Below are positions 33,750 to 39,283 of a DNA stretch of 64,000 nucleotides, piece after piece. This stretch comes from an uncultured Roseibium sp. Lineage in GTDB: Bacteria > Pseudomonadota > Alphaproteobacteria > Rhizobiales > Stappiaceae. Under the pieces are notes generated by a model. The model worked only from the letters and a program-made list of their open reading frames with translations, was not told the DNA's origin and made no database searches. The stretch is taken from positions 1-64,000 of the forward strand of contig NZ_CANMNP010000020.1 in assembly GCF_947499295.1 (NCBI RefSeq). The letters run 5' to 3'. A program made the translations under genes and the position numbers. Every line of letters starts with the position of its first letter. The stretch's first letter is position 1.

Positions 33750-34988
33750 GTGACCAGCTCAGCGACCCCTGATACCTATTCTCAGGACGGGCCATACGCC
33801 TGGTTCCGGCTGGCGATCTGTATTCTGCTTGGAACTCTTGGCGGAGCCGGAATGTGGGCGGTCGTTATCGTGCTGCCCGCCGTTCAGAACGATTTCGGTA
33901 TCGACCGGGCCGATGCGGCCCTGCCCTACACCGCAACCATGCTTGGATTTGCTGCCGGCAACTACATTCTCGGCAGGTTTGTTGACCGGTATGGGATCGT
34001 GTTCCCGGTCATCGTCTCTGCCCTTTTCTTAAGTTCCGGCTTCGCTCTGGCCGCACTTGCGCCGAATGTGTGGCTTTTCACAGTCGCCCAAGGCCTCTTG
34101 ATCGGCCTTGGAACCTCGGCAACCTTTGGTCCCTTGATCGCGGATATCTCGCACTGGTTCTTAAAGCGGCGCGGTTTTGCTGTCGGGTGCGCTGCCTGCG
34201 GCAATTACCTGGCTGGCGTTCTTTGGCCCTCGATCATTCAATGGAGCCTTGGATTTACTGACTGGCGGGACACCTACCTGCTCATCGCCGCAATCTGCAT
34301 TTCGACCATGGTGCCATTGGCATTCATCCTGCGGCGTCCCCCGCCTGAAAATGCATTGTCGGCAGCACCTGTACATGCCCGCTTCGGTGGGCAGACGACA
34401 GGCTTGTCGCCAGCAGCTCTCCAGACGCTGTTGGTGATTGCCGGAATAGCTTGCTGTGTCGCCATGTCGATGCCGCAGGTTCACATCGTGGCTTATTGCG
34501 TGGATCTGGGTTATGGCGTTGCACCCGGCGCAGACATGATCGCGTTGATGACAGGTGCAGGTGTGCTCAGCCGATTGGCTTCAGGCCTCATCGCCGACAA
34601 AATAGGTGGCATCAAAACACTTTTGCTCGGCTCTGTCGGACAGTGTCTCTCACTGTTTTTGTTCATACCTTTTGACGGCCTTGCCTCGCTCTATCTCGTA
34701 TCTCTGATCTTCGGACTTTCACAAGGAGGCATCGTACCGAGCTATGCCGTCATCGTGCGCGAATACCTGCCGGCAAGAGAAGCGGGCCAACGTGTCGGCC
34801 TCGTGGTCATGTCGACCATCCTGGGTATGGCCCTTGGCGGCTGGCTCTCGGGCCTGATCTACGATTTGACCGGATCTTATGAAGCCGCATTCCTGAACGG
34901 TATTGCCTGGAACCTCTTGAACATGGCCATCGCCATTTTCATCCTGTTCAGCGGTCGCCGCCGGTCTTCGCTCGCAGCAGGACAATAA
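33750..34988 (+). CDS. MFS transporter
   Basis: Major facilitator protein of about 412 residues with 12 predicted helices. It has the family loop GRFVDRYGIVFPVIVSALFL between helices 2 and 3 and its repeat GLIADKIGGIKTLLLGS in the second half. It resembles the monocarboxylate/oxalate-type exporters (GTSATFGPLIADISHWFLKRRGFAVG), but the substrate is unknown. I choose GTG 33750, which has GGAG upstream; the frame starts with a TTG at 33696. Its last 41 bases overlap the 3' end of the convergent btuC-type gene. Confidence 0.87.
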   Translation: MTSSATPDTYSQDGPYAWFRLAICILLGTLGGAGMWAVVIVLPAVQNDFGIDRADAALPYTATMLGFAAGNYILGRFVDRYGIVFPVIVSALFLSSGFALAALAPNVWLFTVAQGLLIGLGTSATFGPLIADISHWFLKRRGFAVGCAACGNYLAGVLWPSIIQWSLGFTDWRDTYLLIAAICISTMVPLAFILRRPPPENALSAAPVHARFGGQTTGLSPAALQTLLVIAGIACCVAMSMPQVHIVAYCVDLGYGVAPGADMIALMTGAGVLSRLASGLIADKIGGIKTLLLGSVGQCLSLFLFIPFDGLASLYLVSLIFGLSQGGIVPSYAVIVREYLPAREAGQRVGLVVMSTILGMALGGWLSGLIYDLTGSYEAAFLNGIAWNLLNMAIAIFILFSGRRRSSLAAGQ

Positions 34989-36036
34989 AGAACACGCCGC
35001 CGATCAGACCGGTCACAATCCCGATGGGCATATCCTCCGGGGCCATCAAGGTGCGTGCTGCAACATCTGCCCAGATCAGGAAAATCGCTCCAAGAAGCAA
35101 TGACGCAGGCAAGACACGCGTATAACTGCCCCCAACCAGGAACCGCGCAATATGCGGGATCATCAGACCGACAAATCCGATGATCCCGGAAAATGCAACC
35201 ATGACACCCGTTATTAGTGCGCCGACGACAAACACGGTGAAACGGAAACGTGTCACCGGGATACCGAGCGTTGCCGCAGTCTCGTCGCCGATGGTCATGG
35301 CGTTGAGATCCGCAGCCCTGAGCATGAGATACGGAACCGTCACGAGCAGAATGCCAAGCGGAAACAGGAGATGGAGCCATTGGGCCAGCCCAAGACCTCC
35401 CAGCATCCAGAAGACAACTGTATGCGTCGCTTTCGGGTCTCCGAGAAAAATCAGCACATTGGCAAGCGACATGATGATGAAGGAGACGGCCACTCCGGCA
35501 AGCACAAGCTTGTCGGCGCTGGTAGCAACCGCAAAACGCGTGACGCCGAGCACCACGAGCGTTGCAACAAGTGCACCGGCAAACGCCATCAGCGGAACGG
35601 TTAGCAATCCAAGGAAAAGGCCAGTGTGAAGCAAGGCCAGGATCGCGCCAGCGGCACCGCCCGATGATATCCCGAGAAGATGCGGGTCAGCGAGCGGATT
35701 GCGTGTCACGGACTGCAGCGCAGCGCCGACCACGGCCAGCCCAGCGCCGACAAAACCCGCAAGCAGAACCCTTGGAAACCGGATTTCCCAGACAATTGCT
35801 TCCCGGCCGCTCGACCATGTCACGTCAAACAGACCTGGAACCAACTTGTTCGCAATAACACCAAGCACTGTTCCGGCCGGAACCGGAACGGCTCCAACTG
35901 AAACCGCGACAATCATCGAGAGGCAAAGGGCCGCAATGCCAACCAGAACCAGACCGAGAAAACGCCAGCTTTTTCTGCGGCCCGGTTCCTTTGTCGCCTC
36001 ATTCAAGGATTGGCTATGGTGCGGTCGTTGTAGCAA
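34948..36036 (-). CDS. btuC: FecCD/BtuC-type ABC transporter permease (cobalamin)
   Basis: Membrane protein of 362 residues with about ten helices in the FecCD family. Typical segments are EIRFPRVLLAGFVGAGLAVVGAALQSVTRNPLADPHLLGISSGGAAGA and GFVGLMIPHIARFLVGG. It is the last gene of an operon headed by a cobalamin riboswitch, so cobalamin or another corrinoid is the likely cargo rather than a ferric siderophore. The start is a TTG at 36036, four bases after the upstream stop. The 3' end overlaps the convergent MFS gene by 41 bases. Confidence 0.9.
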   Translation of the reverse strand: MLQRPHHSQSLNEATKEPGRRKSWRFLGLVLVGIAALCLSMIVAVSVGAVPVPAGTVLGVIANKLVPGLFDVTWSSGREAIVWEIRFPRVLLAGFVGAGLAVVGAALQSVTRNPLADPHLLGISSGGAAGAILALLHTGLFLGLLTVPLMAFAGALVATLVVLGVTRFAVATSADKLVLAGVAVSFIIMSLANVLIFLGDPKATHTVVFWMLGGLGLAQWLHLLFPLGILLVTVPYLMLRAADLNAMTIGDETAATLGIPVTRFRFTVFVVGALITGVMVAFSGIIGFVGLMIPHIARFLVGGSYTRVLPASLLLGAIFLIWADVAARTLMAPEDMPIGIVTGLIGGVFFIVLLRAKTGGDR

Positions 36037-36039
36037 GGA

Positions 36040-36975
36040 TCACTCGCCCCAAAATGCGTTGGCGAGCTTCTTCACGGCCCTGATGTTGCGCGGACCCGGT
36101 GTCGCCTCAACATATTCCAAGGTCACGAACCGGTCATTCTTGACCGCTTCAATTCCGGCCAGCGCGGGATTGTTTTTCATGAAATCGCGCTTCTCTTCAG
36201 CCGTGACTTTACCGTAGTTGACGATGACAACCATTTCAGGGTCGGCCTCGACGACTGCCTCCCAGTCGACCGTTGCCCAGCTTTTTTCGAAGCTGTCCAG
36301 AACATTGATGCCCCCAGCAGCTTCAATCAGCGCGGTCGGCATGGCATATCGCCCAGCCGTAAAGGGTTTATCCTCGCCACTGTCATAAACGAAAACGCGA
36401 AGCGGTTTATCGCCGGCTTTCAATTTGGAGGTAAATGCGTCCAGTTCGGCCTTGTAGCCGGCCACCAGATCATAGGCTGCATCTTCCACGTCGAAAATTT
36501 TACCGAGATTGATAAGGTCGTTGTACATGTCTCCCATGGAGACCTTTGGTTTTTCGCCAATGTGGATACAAGATTCCGTCAGTTCGTAGACTTTGATGCC
36601 GAAGGGCTCCAGCGTCTCGGGCGTGACCTCACCACCAACCTTCATGCCGTAGTTCCAGCCTGCGAAATAAAAATCTGCATCTGCTCCAATCAACACTTCT
36701 TTGGTCGGATACTTGGCGGAAAGCTCGGGCAGTTCGGCAACGCCTTCGCGCATTTCCTCATCCAGCGTTTTCCAGCCCGAGATACCGGTGTAACCGACCA
36801 TCCGATCACGTAGACCAAGAGCCAGCATCATTTCCGTCAGGTTCACGTCGTTGGAAACCGCCGCTTTCGGCGGCTCGGAGAACACAACCTCCCGGTCACA
36901 GCTGCGCACTGAGGTTTCAGCAAATGCAGACCCTGCCAAGACAGTCAGGACGAGACTAAGTGCAATACGTTTCAT
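36040..36975 (-). CDS. btuF: Cobalamin-type ABC substrate-binding protein (BtuF-like)
   Basis: Periplasmic protein of 311 residues in the FecB/BtuF family (type III binding fold). Signal peptide MKRIALSLVLTVLAGSAFA; the N-terminal lobe has LTEMMLALGLRDRMVGYTG and the C-terminal lobe ALIEAAGGINVLDSFEKSWATVDWEAVVEADPEMVVIVNYG. Four cysteines may form disulfides. The riboswitch upstream of the operon makes a corrinoid the most likely ligand. The frame is open to 37050, but homologues begin at the signal peptide (36975). Confidence 0.88.
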   Translation of the reverse strand: MKRIALSLVLTVLAGSAFAETSVRSCDREVVFSEPPKAAVSNDVNLTEMMLALGLRDRMVGYTGISGWKTLDEEMREGVAELPELSAKYPTKEVLIGADADFYFAGWNYGMKVGGEVTPETLEPFGIKVYELTESCIHIGEKPKVSMGDMYNDLINLGKIFDVEDAAYDLVAGYKAELDAFTSKLKAGDKPLRVFVYDSGEDKPFTAGRYAMPTALIEAAGGINVLDSFEKSWATVDWEAVVEADPEMVVIVNYGKVTAEEKRDFMKNNPALAGIEAVKNDRFVTLEYVEATPGPRNIRAVKKLANAFWGE

Positions 36976-36991
36976 GTTACGAATTCCATAT

Positions 36992-37765
36992 TCAAAGGTG
37001 AAAAGTGAGGTGTTGCTCGTGGCTTTGACTAAGCCGCTCCTGTCGGACAAAGACAGAGTATGCTTGTTCGATATGCGTTGGCGTCAGAACCTCTTCCGGA
37101 GTTCCAAAACCAAGTGATCTACCTTTGTGCAAAAGCAGCACCTGATCGCACACGCGACCTGCCAGGTTGAGATCATGCAGACTGGTGACGATCGTGATGT
37201 TGAGGCTGCTGATCAGCGTCACGATTTCCAGTTGATGTCGAATATCAAGGTGATTGGTAGGCTCATCGAGAATGAGCAGCCGTGGTTTTTGAGCCAGGGC
37301 GCGGGCCACCATGACACGCTGACGTTCGCCGCCCGAAAGGGTCCCGAGAGAACGTGCAGACAAGTCGTTGAGGCCCATACGCTCCAGGGCCTCATCGACA
37401 ATTTCGGTATCCCGCCTACCGCCTCTGGCAAACCCTGAGCCGTGTGGGCGGCGACCGAGTTCAACAATCTCACGAACGGAAAGTGCGAAATCTCCGGGTT
37501 GCTCTTGCAGGACCGCGGCAACTTTTTGTGCCGTTTCCCTTGTCGACATGGACCAGATGTCCTCACCGTCGAGACGAACGGTCCCGGTAACCGGCCTATG
37601 GAACCGATAGAGCAGCCGAAGTAGAGTGGATTTTCCAGCACCGTTGGCACCGGCAACTCCCAACACCTTGCCGGCGGGAACGTCAAAACTGACGCCGTTC
37701 AAAAGTGCATGCCCCCTGCCCGGTGACCATCCAACATTCTGAACACTGAGAACTGTGCCACTCAT
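36992..37765 (-). CDS. btuD: ABC transporter ATPase (BtuD/FecE-like)
   Basis: Protein of 257 residues with a complete nucleotide-binding domain: Walker A GANGAGKSTLL (about 38-48), Q-loop near VAAVLQEQPG, signature LSGGERQRVMVARAL, Walker B LLILDEPTNHLD and switch His in TIVTSLHDLNLA. It energises uptake through the FecCD-type permease. It overlaps the DUF1636 gene by four bases; the next gene follows after 16 bases. Confidence 0.93.
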   Translation of the reverse strand: MSGTVLSVQNVGWSPGRGHALLNGVSFDVPAGKVLGVAGANGAGKSTLLRLLYRFHRPVTGTVRLDGEDIWSMSTRETAQKVAAVLQEQPGDFALSVREIVELGRRPHGSGFARGGRRDTEIVDEALERMGLNDLSARSLGTLSGGERQRVMVARALAQKPRLLILDEPTNHLDIRHQLEIVTLISSLNITIVTSLHDLNLAGRVCDQVLLLHKGRSLGFGTPEEVLTPTHIEQAYSVFVRQERLSQSHEQHLTFHL

Positions 37766-38169
37766 GAGACTGCAGTCTCCTCAGCCCGGGTCACGATCAT
37801 CGCAGATGGAATGCGCGCAAGCGTGGTTTTGCGAAGTTTGCCCGGCCGTACTGTGGAAGAGCACCAACCATCTGTGAGGTCCTGATACTGCCGCGCGAAG
37901 GCAATAAGGTCCTCAATATCGGTCTCTGGGTCTATGTCGCCAACCAAATAGGTTGCCTTGCCATTGGCCCGATAAGCGACCGTACAGGGCCTGTCGCACC
38001 CGGCCATGCATGCAATGCCCGACACTTCAAAGTCGTCACCTACTATCGGTGTCGCAAGACGCATTGCGTCCTGAAGTTTCTTGATCAGCTCAAGACCCGG
38101 CCGGCAGTTGGTGCCCTTGTAGCGGCAGGACGTGCAGACAAAGATCTTGTGTTTGTCATCTTGCATCAT
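37762..38169 (-). CDS. DUF1636 family metal-binding-like protein
   Basis: Cytoplasmic protein of 135 residues with cysteine clusters CTSCRYKGTNCRPG near the N-terminus and CMAGCDRPCTVAYRA in the middle, a pattern like thin-fold ferredoxins (2Fe-2S). DUF1636 genes are often found with cobalamin-related or metal-uptake genes. Here it sits between the riboswitch and the ABC importer, so it may act in corrinoid handling or reduction (inference). The four-base overlap with the ATPase couples them. Confidence 0.85.
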   Translation of the reverse strand: MMQDDKHKIFVCTSCRYKGTNCRPGLELIKKLQDAMRLATPIVGDDFEVSGIACMAGCDRPCTVAYRANGKATYLVGDIDPETDIEDLIAFARQYQDLTDGWCSSTVRPGKLRKTTLARIPSAMIVTRAEETAVS

Positions 38170-38413
38170 CGTTCTCCGCCAGACCTTCCCCGAAACTGTC
38201 TAATTCGTCCCGATCCCGGGTTCGCAAAGGCACTTGCGAAGCACAGTCAGGTAAAATCACTTGTAATGTTATTACATTACGATTCAGTTTTCTGGCAAGC
38301 CCTGCGGGACGATCGTTCGGCCGCATGGCTCGCGCGGCACGTTCACTTAAGGGGTCGGCAGCCTTCAAGAAGGCAGGATCAAAGGAATTGGCAGTCGTGT
38401 TGCTCCGGTTCAT
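38156..38413 (-). CDS. Small hypothetical protein downstream of cobalamin riboswitch
   Basis: Open frame of 85 codons whose ATG has an excellent ribosome site (GGAGGG, four bases before ATG). It overlaps the DUF1636 gene by 14 bases, as in a coupled operon. The protein is basic in its first half (LSERAARAMRPNDRPAGLARKLNR) and acidic at the end, with one cysteine and no membrane helix. I do not recognise a family. It could be a genuine small protein or a coupling leader whose product is irrelevant. Confidence 0.45.
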   Translation of the reverse strand: MNRSNTTANSFDPAFLKAADPLSERAARAMRPNDRPAGLARKLNRNVITLQVILPDCASQVPLRTRDRDELDSFGEGLAENDDAR

Positions 38414-38489
38414 ATCGCCCTCCGCGATGGCGCGGGGCGTTCAAGAACCGAATGTCAATTTGTGTCAGCAAAGATAGCCGATATGCCAT
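38379..38489 (-). CDS. Possible 36-residue leader peptide after riboswitch
   Basis: The first ATG downstream of the riboswitch with a strong ribosome site (GGAGGAG, eight bases before ATG) opens a 36-codon frame that ends inside the next small ORF (35-base overlap, different frame). A small hairpin CCGGG...CCCGG directly abuts that ribosome site, as would be expected for translational control by the riboswitch. No similarity recognised. Confidence 0.3.
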   Translation of the reverse strand: MAYRLSLLTQIDIRFLNAPRHRGGRYEPEQHDCQFL

Positions 38490-38535
38490 GCCACTCGCTC
38501 CTCCGGGACACCCCGCCCGGGTTGAAGTTGAAATT

Positions 38536-38722
38536 GCAATGGCAGGTCTCCTGACTTACGGGTCATCGCTTGCCTGATCCTTCCCGGGAAACCCAGTGGC
38601 GCTTTCAGGTTTGCTCGCCGTTCACAGTTGCGGGGGCAGTCACGGATTTGGTGCCTTCTGGCTACGCCTCACCGTGTTCCCTTTTAATCCCGATCCGGCC
38701 TCGGATTCGGAAACCATCAAAA
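38536..38722 (-). promoter_or_regulatory. Cobalamin (B12) riboswitch
   Basis: Read on the minus strand the element contains, in order, GATGGTTTCC (38718-38709), TTAAAAGGGAACACGGTGAG, CCGTGACTGCCCCCGCAACTG, GCCACTGGG, GGGAAGGATCAGGC and the B12 box AAGTCAGGAGACCTGCC (about 38541-38557). These are the conserved parts of the AdoCbl riboswitch family. It is oriented toward DUF1636-btuD-btuF-btuC. No terminator follows it; a hairpin touching a GGAGGAG site at about 38495-38515 suggests translational control. High corrinoid should switch the importer operon off. Confidence 0.95.
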
Positions 38723-39283
38723 AAACTGAGTGCCGCAAATCGCTGGTTGAGTCAATCAGGCCTTTCACCTTTGGGGGAAATACTTGGACACCCTAGTTCC
38801 GAGCTCTTGCCGGCAGAGCAATCGATCAGGACACCGAAACTGCCCAATGAAAATTGCAAAGTTCAAATGAGGCGATAGTTCCAGCTCGGGGACCCTTCAG
38901 CCTGCAGATTATCCCGTTCTTTTCTCGCAAAACGATCCGCGTGACATGTTGATGTTTTTCGGCATGAGATTGTCCCTCGTTTGTTGCAGCGGATGCGGCA
39001 TGAAGAATTTAAGCTTGATAAGAATACTCCATTGGAACCCGGTGAGCGCCGTGCCTCTACCTGAAAATTATCAACTGGTCCGTGATCAAAGCCACATGTG
39101 TTGCACCCCTTAATATCTGCGCCTTGAGACCAGTGCGCCGCGTTGCAGCCCTCGCGCTGGGGCAACGTGACCGAGTGACGGGTTGCCGCAGGGCATGGCG
39201 CCGCAGGCAGGCCATTTTCAATTGTAGCCGATAAGTAAAATTCCATATTCAGCAGCAAGAGCTGACAGCTTGAAAGGTGTCAC
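38723..39283. other. Intergenic region riboswitch / cydA
   Basis: About 560 bases between divergent units, containing the promoter of the B12 operon on one strand and of cydAB on the other. I found no perfect FNR box (TTGAT-N4-ATCAA). A minus-strand open frame (39258-38863) has cysteine-rich, random-looking composition and no ribosome site, so it is not called as a gene. Confidence 0.35.

Follow-up and report, generated by a model that had tools for sequence, protein, structure and literature searches.

A probable two-input control region with a cobalamin riboswitch, a leader ORF and a putative internal Zur-repressed promoter upstream of a DUF1636-importer operon in Roseibium

Riboswitch and importer genes at the locus

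The window analyzed here is a stretch of 64,000 nucleotides from an uncultured Roseibium sp. (contig NZ_CANMNP010000020.1). On its minus strand, a cobalamin riboswitch is followed by a 36-codon leader ORF, an 85-codon ORF (hereafter the small ORF), a DUF1636 gene and the genes of an ABC importer. The features are summarized in Table 1.

Table 1 Features of the control region and the downstream operon in the window.
Feature	Position	Strand	Basis
Cobalamin riboswitch aptamer (RF00174)	38524..38733	-	cmscan
P13 expression-platform hairpin, CCGGG-CGGGGTGT-CCCGG	38503..38520	-	covariation
SD1, GGAGGAG, abuts P13	38498..38504	-	sequence; kept in alignment
Leader ORF, 36 codons	38379..38489	-	frame open in 20/20 loci
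Conserved CGGTTC..CCGCGccaTCGCGGAGGGCGATATGAACCG, able to form a fold enclosing SD2 and the start of the small ORF	38406..38450	-	fold
SD2, GGAGGG	38418..38423	-	sequence
Small ORF, 85 codons; coding core around ERAARAMRPN	38156..38413	-	codon-position diversity; homologues in genus
Putative -35 of P2, TTGCCA	38293..38298	-	TTG at -18 of the box
Zur box, GTAATGTAATAACATTAC; holds putative -10 TGTAAT (38276-38271)	38263..38280	-	published-motif match
DUF1636 gene	37762..38169	-	PF07845, E 7.3e-30
ABC importer ATPase	36992..37765	-	PF00005, E 1.2e-35
Periplasmic substrate-binding protein	36040..37050	-	PF01497, E 1.4e-23
FecCD/BtuC-type permease	34948..36036	-	PF01032, E 1.3e-86

The original prediction had placed a cobalamin riboswitch on the minus strand, and cmscan confirmed it. 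The match to RF00174 covered the full length of the model (positions 1-189 of 189) and scored 126.8 bits (E 1.8e-31) against a gathering threshold of 31.5. Cobalamin binding and switching of expression by this element are thus far predicted. The three other cobalamin riboswitches of the same genome (L002, L003 and L004) precede cobU, nrdH and cbtB, gene names that were assigned by eye.

We aligned 24 regions located 3' of a riboswitch and containing the small ORF. One of them (L016) was dropped as near-identical to L014, leaving 23 loci for the tests. The hairpin CCGGG/CCCGG, predicted to adjoin GGAGGAG, was found again in this alignment, with 38520-38516 pairing with 38507-38503. Its inner pair was G-C in 12, A-U in 9, G-U in 1 and A-G in 1 of the 23 loci; this covariation indicates that the hairpin is a conserved helix and not a chance pairing. 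We take it to be the usual P13 of cobalamin riboswitches. The loop sequence GCGGGG is, by eye, complementary to the aptamer loop GCCCCCGC (L5), so that a P13/L13 platform adjoining a Shine-Dalgarno sequence (SD1) could form a kissing interaction with L5. Extracts of a study of Mycobacterium tuberculosis ppe2 use the P13 label for a cobalamin riboswitch platform and describe an L5-L13 kissing loop (PMC11260477). Single-sequence and consensus folds favored a long-range alternative, in which the P13 5' arm pairs with CCCCGCG near SD2. This alternative may also form; its sole variable pair (GC 11, AU 6, GU 1 and other 5 of 23 loci) sits in a column already constrained by P13.

DUF1636 was found in 33 of the 45 genomes of the genus, including the genome of the window. 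The three following genes had been named btuDFC. The name holds for the fold families (ABC_tran, Peripla_BP_2 and FecCD) and is weak as a substrate label: the NCBIfam equivalog scores of BtuF, BtuC and BtuD were 26.4, 204.3 and 129.4 bits against cut-offs of 234, 334 and 281, so that an assignment as BtuFCD by sequence was rejected. We also compared the importer with a locus on pSymB of Sinorhizobium meliloti, which we take to be cbtJKL from its position and the order of its genes, as the record is not annotated in this stretch. Protein identity was 27.5-41%, and an assignment as CbtJKL by sequence was likewise rejected. The substrate is probably either a corrinoid or cobalt. The DUF1636 family has been linked to thioredoxin-like ferredoxins, according to the accessible part of PMC4520260.

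Conservation of the leader ORF and the small ORF

Both small ORFs, each with its predicted Shine-Dalgarno sequence, lie where the original prediction had put them, and the overlaps of 35 nt between the two ORFs and of 14 nt between the small ORF and the DUF1636 gene are as claimed. The two proteins had been described as unrecognised, in agreement with a Pfam scan that gave no family at E ≤ 10 for either ORF and an NCBIfam scan that gave none at E ≤ 1 for the 85-codon ORF. The codon counts below were made after L014 was also removed, leaving 22 sequences for the small ORF and 19 for the leader. The leader was tested in 20 loci, as L006, L007 and L025 deviate from the common leader start.

The leader start codon ATG and its SD were kept at the same place in all 20 loci. 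The leader frame was open through SD2 and the small-ORF start in 20/20 loci, compared with 3/20 and 7/20 for the other two frames. The diversity at codon positions 1, 2 and 3 was.343,.306 and.304 (19 sequences). The three positions vary alike, indicating that there is no amino-acid-level selection on the leader; it was rejected as a conserved peptide at this level. The leader looks like a conserved frame instead of a conserved peptide, a translated conduit comparable to that of M. tuberculosis ppe2. A GTG/ATG located five bases before the leader ATG was also considered as the true start. We discarded this candidate: only 3 nt separate it from the SD, and in 13 of the 20 loci a stop closes its frame 54 nt short of the small-ORF start.

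In the small ORF, the core around ERAARAMRPN showed diversities of.257,.189 and.574 at codon positions 1, 2 and 3 (22 sequences). Pairwise comparison of codons gave 880 synonymous and 690 non-synonymous differences, exchanges between CGN and AGR arginine codons among them. Synonymous bias, which the original prediction had proposed to look for in both frames together with kept starts, ribosome sites and open frames, was thus found in this core only. On the 3' side of the Zur box described below, the C-terminal sequence is not conserved. Nevertheless, 18 of 19 loci kept the frame open for 104-131 nt beyond the box and the 19th (G037) continued in frame into DUF1636, while the other two frames met a stop within 52 nt in 7/19 and 15/19 loci. 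The strong variation at third codon positions in the core and the frame kept open to DUF1636 in relatives mark the 85-codon ORF as a genuine gene, as judged by comparison of sequences. If both ORFs were untranslated, all conservation in the region would reflect regulatory RNA and DNA. The leader without a codon signature and the variable C-terminal part of the small ORF are in line with such a reading; the synonymous excess with its arginine swaps in the core and the open frame past the box speak against it, and we regard it as the least probable explanation considered here.

The overlap between the small ORF and DUF1636 was 4 or 11 nt in 19 of the 24 loci, counted to the DUF1636 start codon chosen by our script; counting to the first ATG instead gives 14 nt in the window. 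The other five loci comprise the G037 fusion, one gap (L025), two loci in which the DUF1636 start was not settled (L006 and L007) and one without DUF1636 (L053). In the G037 fusion (L009), the small ORF and DUF1636 form a natural fusion of 224 codons. At L053 (G032), the riboswitch, leader, small ORF (67 codons) and Zur box are kept, DUF1636 was not found, and an ABC ATPase gene follows.

We searched 397 genomes of the order for the small ORF. Matches were found in 24 genomes at E ≤ 0.01; only six matches, all of the same genus, were strong, and the other 18 were partial with E ≥ 6e-5. A widespread family was therefore rejected at this scale, there being no convincing match outside the genus, and by sequence the small ORF is a gene found only in this genus. 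The arrangement is not general within the genus either: eight of its riboswitch-DUF1636 loci lack the small ORF.

The conserved stretch around SD2 and the small-ORF start (Table 1) was examined as an RNA fold. The fold of 38400-38460 was better than that of shuffled sequences (z = -3.73). The pairs around SD2 hardly vary, so covariation cannot confirm the fold there, and two folds compete for this region.

Leaders are also present at other riboswitches. Of 21 other riboswitch loci, 18 have, within 110 nt, a start codon accompanied by an SD-like stretch and opening an ORF that is at least 25 codons long and separate from DUF1636; the S. meliloti pSymB locus is one of them. At L221 the leader reads straight into DUF1636, and L199 and L028 show none. 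The leader layout is thus common and resembles that of ppe2. At L125 and L081, the leader stops well short of the next gene. The leaders of L200-L203 (sister genus g4), MTRN(D/E)SIFRPSR.F.RSLP.LA.ERAG.RHGA, faintly resemble the small ORF (LSERAARAM) and may be its ancestral form. The leaders of L195, L196, L015, L018, L020 and L022 have a GGGP(N/D) stretch in common, which looks like the ribosome site of the next gene read in the leader frame, an overlapping design without the small ORF.

Zur box and putative promoter within the small ORF

The small-ORF codons for NVITL spell GTAATGTAATAACATTAC, the most conserved element of the region and one absent from the original prediction. This sequence matches, at 18/18 positions, the Agrobacterium-group Zur box quoted in the accessible text of PMC2706843. 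Five Zur motifs of Paracoccus denitrificans, taken from extracts of PMC5387054, differed from the first 15 bases of the box at 0, 1, 1, 3 and 4 positions. Zur may bind to 38263-38280 in view of these matches.

Among the 45 genomes of the genus, the box was found with at most two mismatches at 77 sites in 41 genomes. The backwards sequence, used as a control, gave two matches in total. By base composition, assuming 58% G+C, 0.00003 exact and 0.06 two-mismatch matches are expected by chance per 6.4 Mb. When the 77 sites were crossed with 150 listed riboswitches, at least 26 of the 45 genomes carried the box 238-289 nt 3' of a cobalamin riboswitch, as against about 0.03 predicted by a simple formula, and 19 had no box beside a riboswitch among the matches listed. 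In the window, 244 nt separate the aptamer from the box on its 3' side, which is within the riboswitch transcript. Within 600 nt of the three other riboswitches of the same genome, no box was found; the best match had 8 mismatches.

Fifty-one sites were not beside a listed riboswitch. Forty of these precede, or lie at the start of, genes for COG0523 proteins (25), ZinT (12), ZnuA (2) and zur-znuC (1), indicating that 40/51 sites are at zinc-uptake or zinc-chaperone genes of the same genus. The COG0523 copy of the window's own genome (L101) scored 589.7 bits with the ZigA model, just below the cut-off of 600. At L122, a zur-like gene (Zur model 109.5 bits, cut-off 167) is followed by znuC (296 bits, cut-off 306), and in G043 a site with one mismatch precedes zur-znuC. 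The genome of the window has a zur-like gene beside znuCB, which scored 88.3 bits with the Zur model, below the cut-off of 167. This znuCB-zur operon had no close box, the best match in G000 C1 216000-224000 having 7 mismatches.

Codon usage within the small ORF also separated the box from the coding core. Codons 47, 48 and 50 (GTA, ATA and TTA) were fixed in 22/22 sequences. Codon 39 had diversities of.55,.17 and.09, its terminal T being almost fixed and its first base variable. This is the opposite of the pattern left by protein selection, and places the box and the TTG positions outside the coding logic. Part of the small-ORF conservation, namely NVITL and the preceding TTG, is thus probably at the DNA level, reflecting a Zur box and a promoter, and such conservation would give the operon a second, zinc-linked input. 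The original model alone, in which the riboswitch gates the leader peptide and small protein and the palindrome is kept merely as NVITL codons, agrees with the protein-level selection on the 85-codon core and with the conserved frames and overlaps. We consider it very unlikely, since 39 other copies of the palindrome stand before COG0523, ZinT or ZnuA genes, G013 and G044 have it with no match to the small ORF, and it contains the three invariant codons given above. In G013 and G044, the riboswitch is followed by a short leader, a Zur box with two mismatches and then an ATPase gene, and no DUF1636 match was found.

The eight riboswitch-DUF1636 loci of the genus without the small ORF also had no Zur box in between, the best match within 600 nt having 7 or 8 mismatches. 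These loci are L005 (G026), L013 (G036), L015 (G039), L018 (G023), L020 (G007), L022 (G033), L026 (G029) and L028 (G031); a second locus of G036 carries both the small ORF and the box. Outside the genus, the box was found at ≤ 4 mismatches in none of 35 DUF1636 loci, a set from which L194 was set aside as belonging to the same genus, and in none of 20 in a second set. A cobalamin riboswitch was present at 18 of 19 scanned loci of the first set and at 15 of 20 of the second. With none at the DUF1636 loci examined outside the genus, the box seems to have arisen within this lineage, where it mostly, though not in every case, accompanies the small ORF.

In 20 of the 23 riboswitch loci, a TTG precedes the box by 18 bases. 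In the window, the sequence reads TTGCCA-16 nt-TGTAAT, with TGTAAT inside the box. This likely represents an internal promoter in the small ORF, the putative P2. A consensus promoter scan of the window locus reported none; the scan demands A at position 2 of the -10, which TGTAAT does not have. The position of TTG relative to the box is not common to the COG0523 promoters. Alternatively, Zur at the box could block RNA polymerase arriving from the riboswitch promoter, acting as a roadblock and not as the repressor of an internal promoter, a reading that would give AND logic (on only if B12 and zinc are both low) and no bypass. The place of the box inside the riboswitch transcript, the imperfect -10 and the negative scan would suit a roadblock. 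The -35-like TTG at exactly -18 in 20/23 loci, at codon positions that protein selection would not keep, argues for the promoter, and we think a roadblock unlikely.

Proposed two-input control and related systems

On these observations, we consider it probable that the region is under two-input control, one input acting through a leader gated by the B12 riboswitch, the other through an internal promoter that Zur represses and that would circumvent the riboswitch in zinc starvation. For the first input, the riboswitch would control access to SD1 through the P13/kissing-loop platform. When B12 is scarce, SD1 would be open and the leader translated, followed by the small ORF and then DUF1636; when B12 is plentiful, SD1 would be shut and the chain silent. 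The leader frame runs through the small-ORF start, and the small ORF into DUF1636, suggesting that translation is passed along and that the chain is shut without translation of the leader. The original prediction of a riboswitch-gated leader peptide coupling the small protein and the importer therefore stands in its frames and overlaps, and not in its leader as a conserved protein.

For the second input, the putative P2 lies inside the small ORF with its -10 within the Zur box. Zinc-loaded Zur would repress P2 and, when zinc is scarce, would leave the box. The mRNA from P2 would not contain the riboswitch; it would start about 95 nt before DUF1636 and carry the SD of DUF1636 itself. The importer could thereby run in zinc-starved cells even with plentiful B12. 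It is conceivable, though doubtful, that P2 overrides B12 feedback so that zinc starvation turns on a cobalt (or corrinoid) importer and DUF1636, with cobalt replacing zinc. In that case, one DNA stretch would serve as protein, promoter, metal-sensor site and translational relay.

Each part of this arrangement is known. In M. tuberculosis ppe2, a B12 riboswitch is found with a translated uORF, and downstream expression depends on translation of this leader, as far as the accessible text goes (PMC11260477). As in those extracts, the P13/L13 platform here would govern the SD of a leader ORF, and this ORF overlaps the start of the next gene. Unlike ppe2, the window has two overlapping frames, one after the other, ahead of DUF1636, the second of which contains a Zur box. 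A ppe2-type dependence of DUF1636 on leader translation is, by analogy, putative in the window.

Zur binding has been shown in the P. denitrificans Zur regulon, where, according to the extracts, the box precedes COG0523 and zinc transport genes (PMC5387054). The same type of box precedes such genes in this genus. In contrast to that regulon, the box in the window is inside a coding sequence and 3' of a riboswitch; the word "riboswitch" is absent from the text of PMC5387054.

The pSymB stretch taken as cbtJKL resembles the window in having a cobalamin riboswitch and a short leader ORF. It differs in the protein identity given above and in having no DUF1636 match at E ≤ 1e-3 within 20 kb. CbtJKL of S. 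meliloti, like the system in the window, is an importer of the BtuF/FecCD type, and parts of two reports indicate that this BtuF-like system can carry cobalt (PMC7689651, PMC12239276). In Pseudomonas aeruginosa, extracts of PMC13083405 describe Zur-controlled cobalt uptake, in which zinc-limited cells take up cobalt, which can replace zinc. This makes cobalt, by analogy, the more attractive guess for the importer substrate in the window. Unlike in the window, a riboswitch is not part of that account, the word being absent from the text of PMC13083405, and no relative of the window's genes was seen named in the extracts. We found no report of a Zur box in a B12-riboswitch operon, and hence of the present combination, in the accessible part of the open-licence literature. 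If the two-input reading is true, B12 feedback through RNA and zinc control through Zur, normally described apart, would be joined on one importer, which would provide a direct genetic handle on bacterial cobalt import as a zinc substitute. A conserved small ORF can also be a partly disguised promoter, the most conserved "amino acids" here being a putative DNA-binding site.

The other 11 of the 51 sites away from listed riboswitches are at genes for GTP cyclohydrolase I (3), alkaline phosphatases (4), family-5 solute-binding proteins (3) and gcrA (1). The ZinT, ZnuA and cyclohydrolase genes were all called by Pfam, and L072, L126 and L128 by eye. The box-like sites L072, L103, L128, L129, L079, L133, L134, L112, L126 and L130 precede genes for PhoA/PhoX-type alkaline phosphatases, GTP cyclohydrolase I and family-5 solute-binding proteins, which are possible further zinc-sparing targets in the genus.
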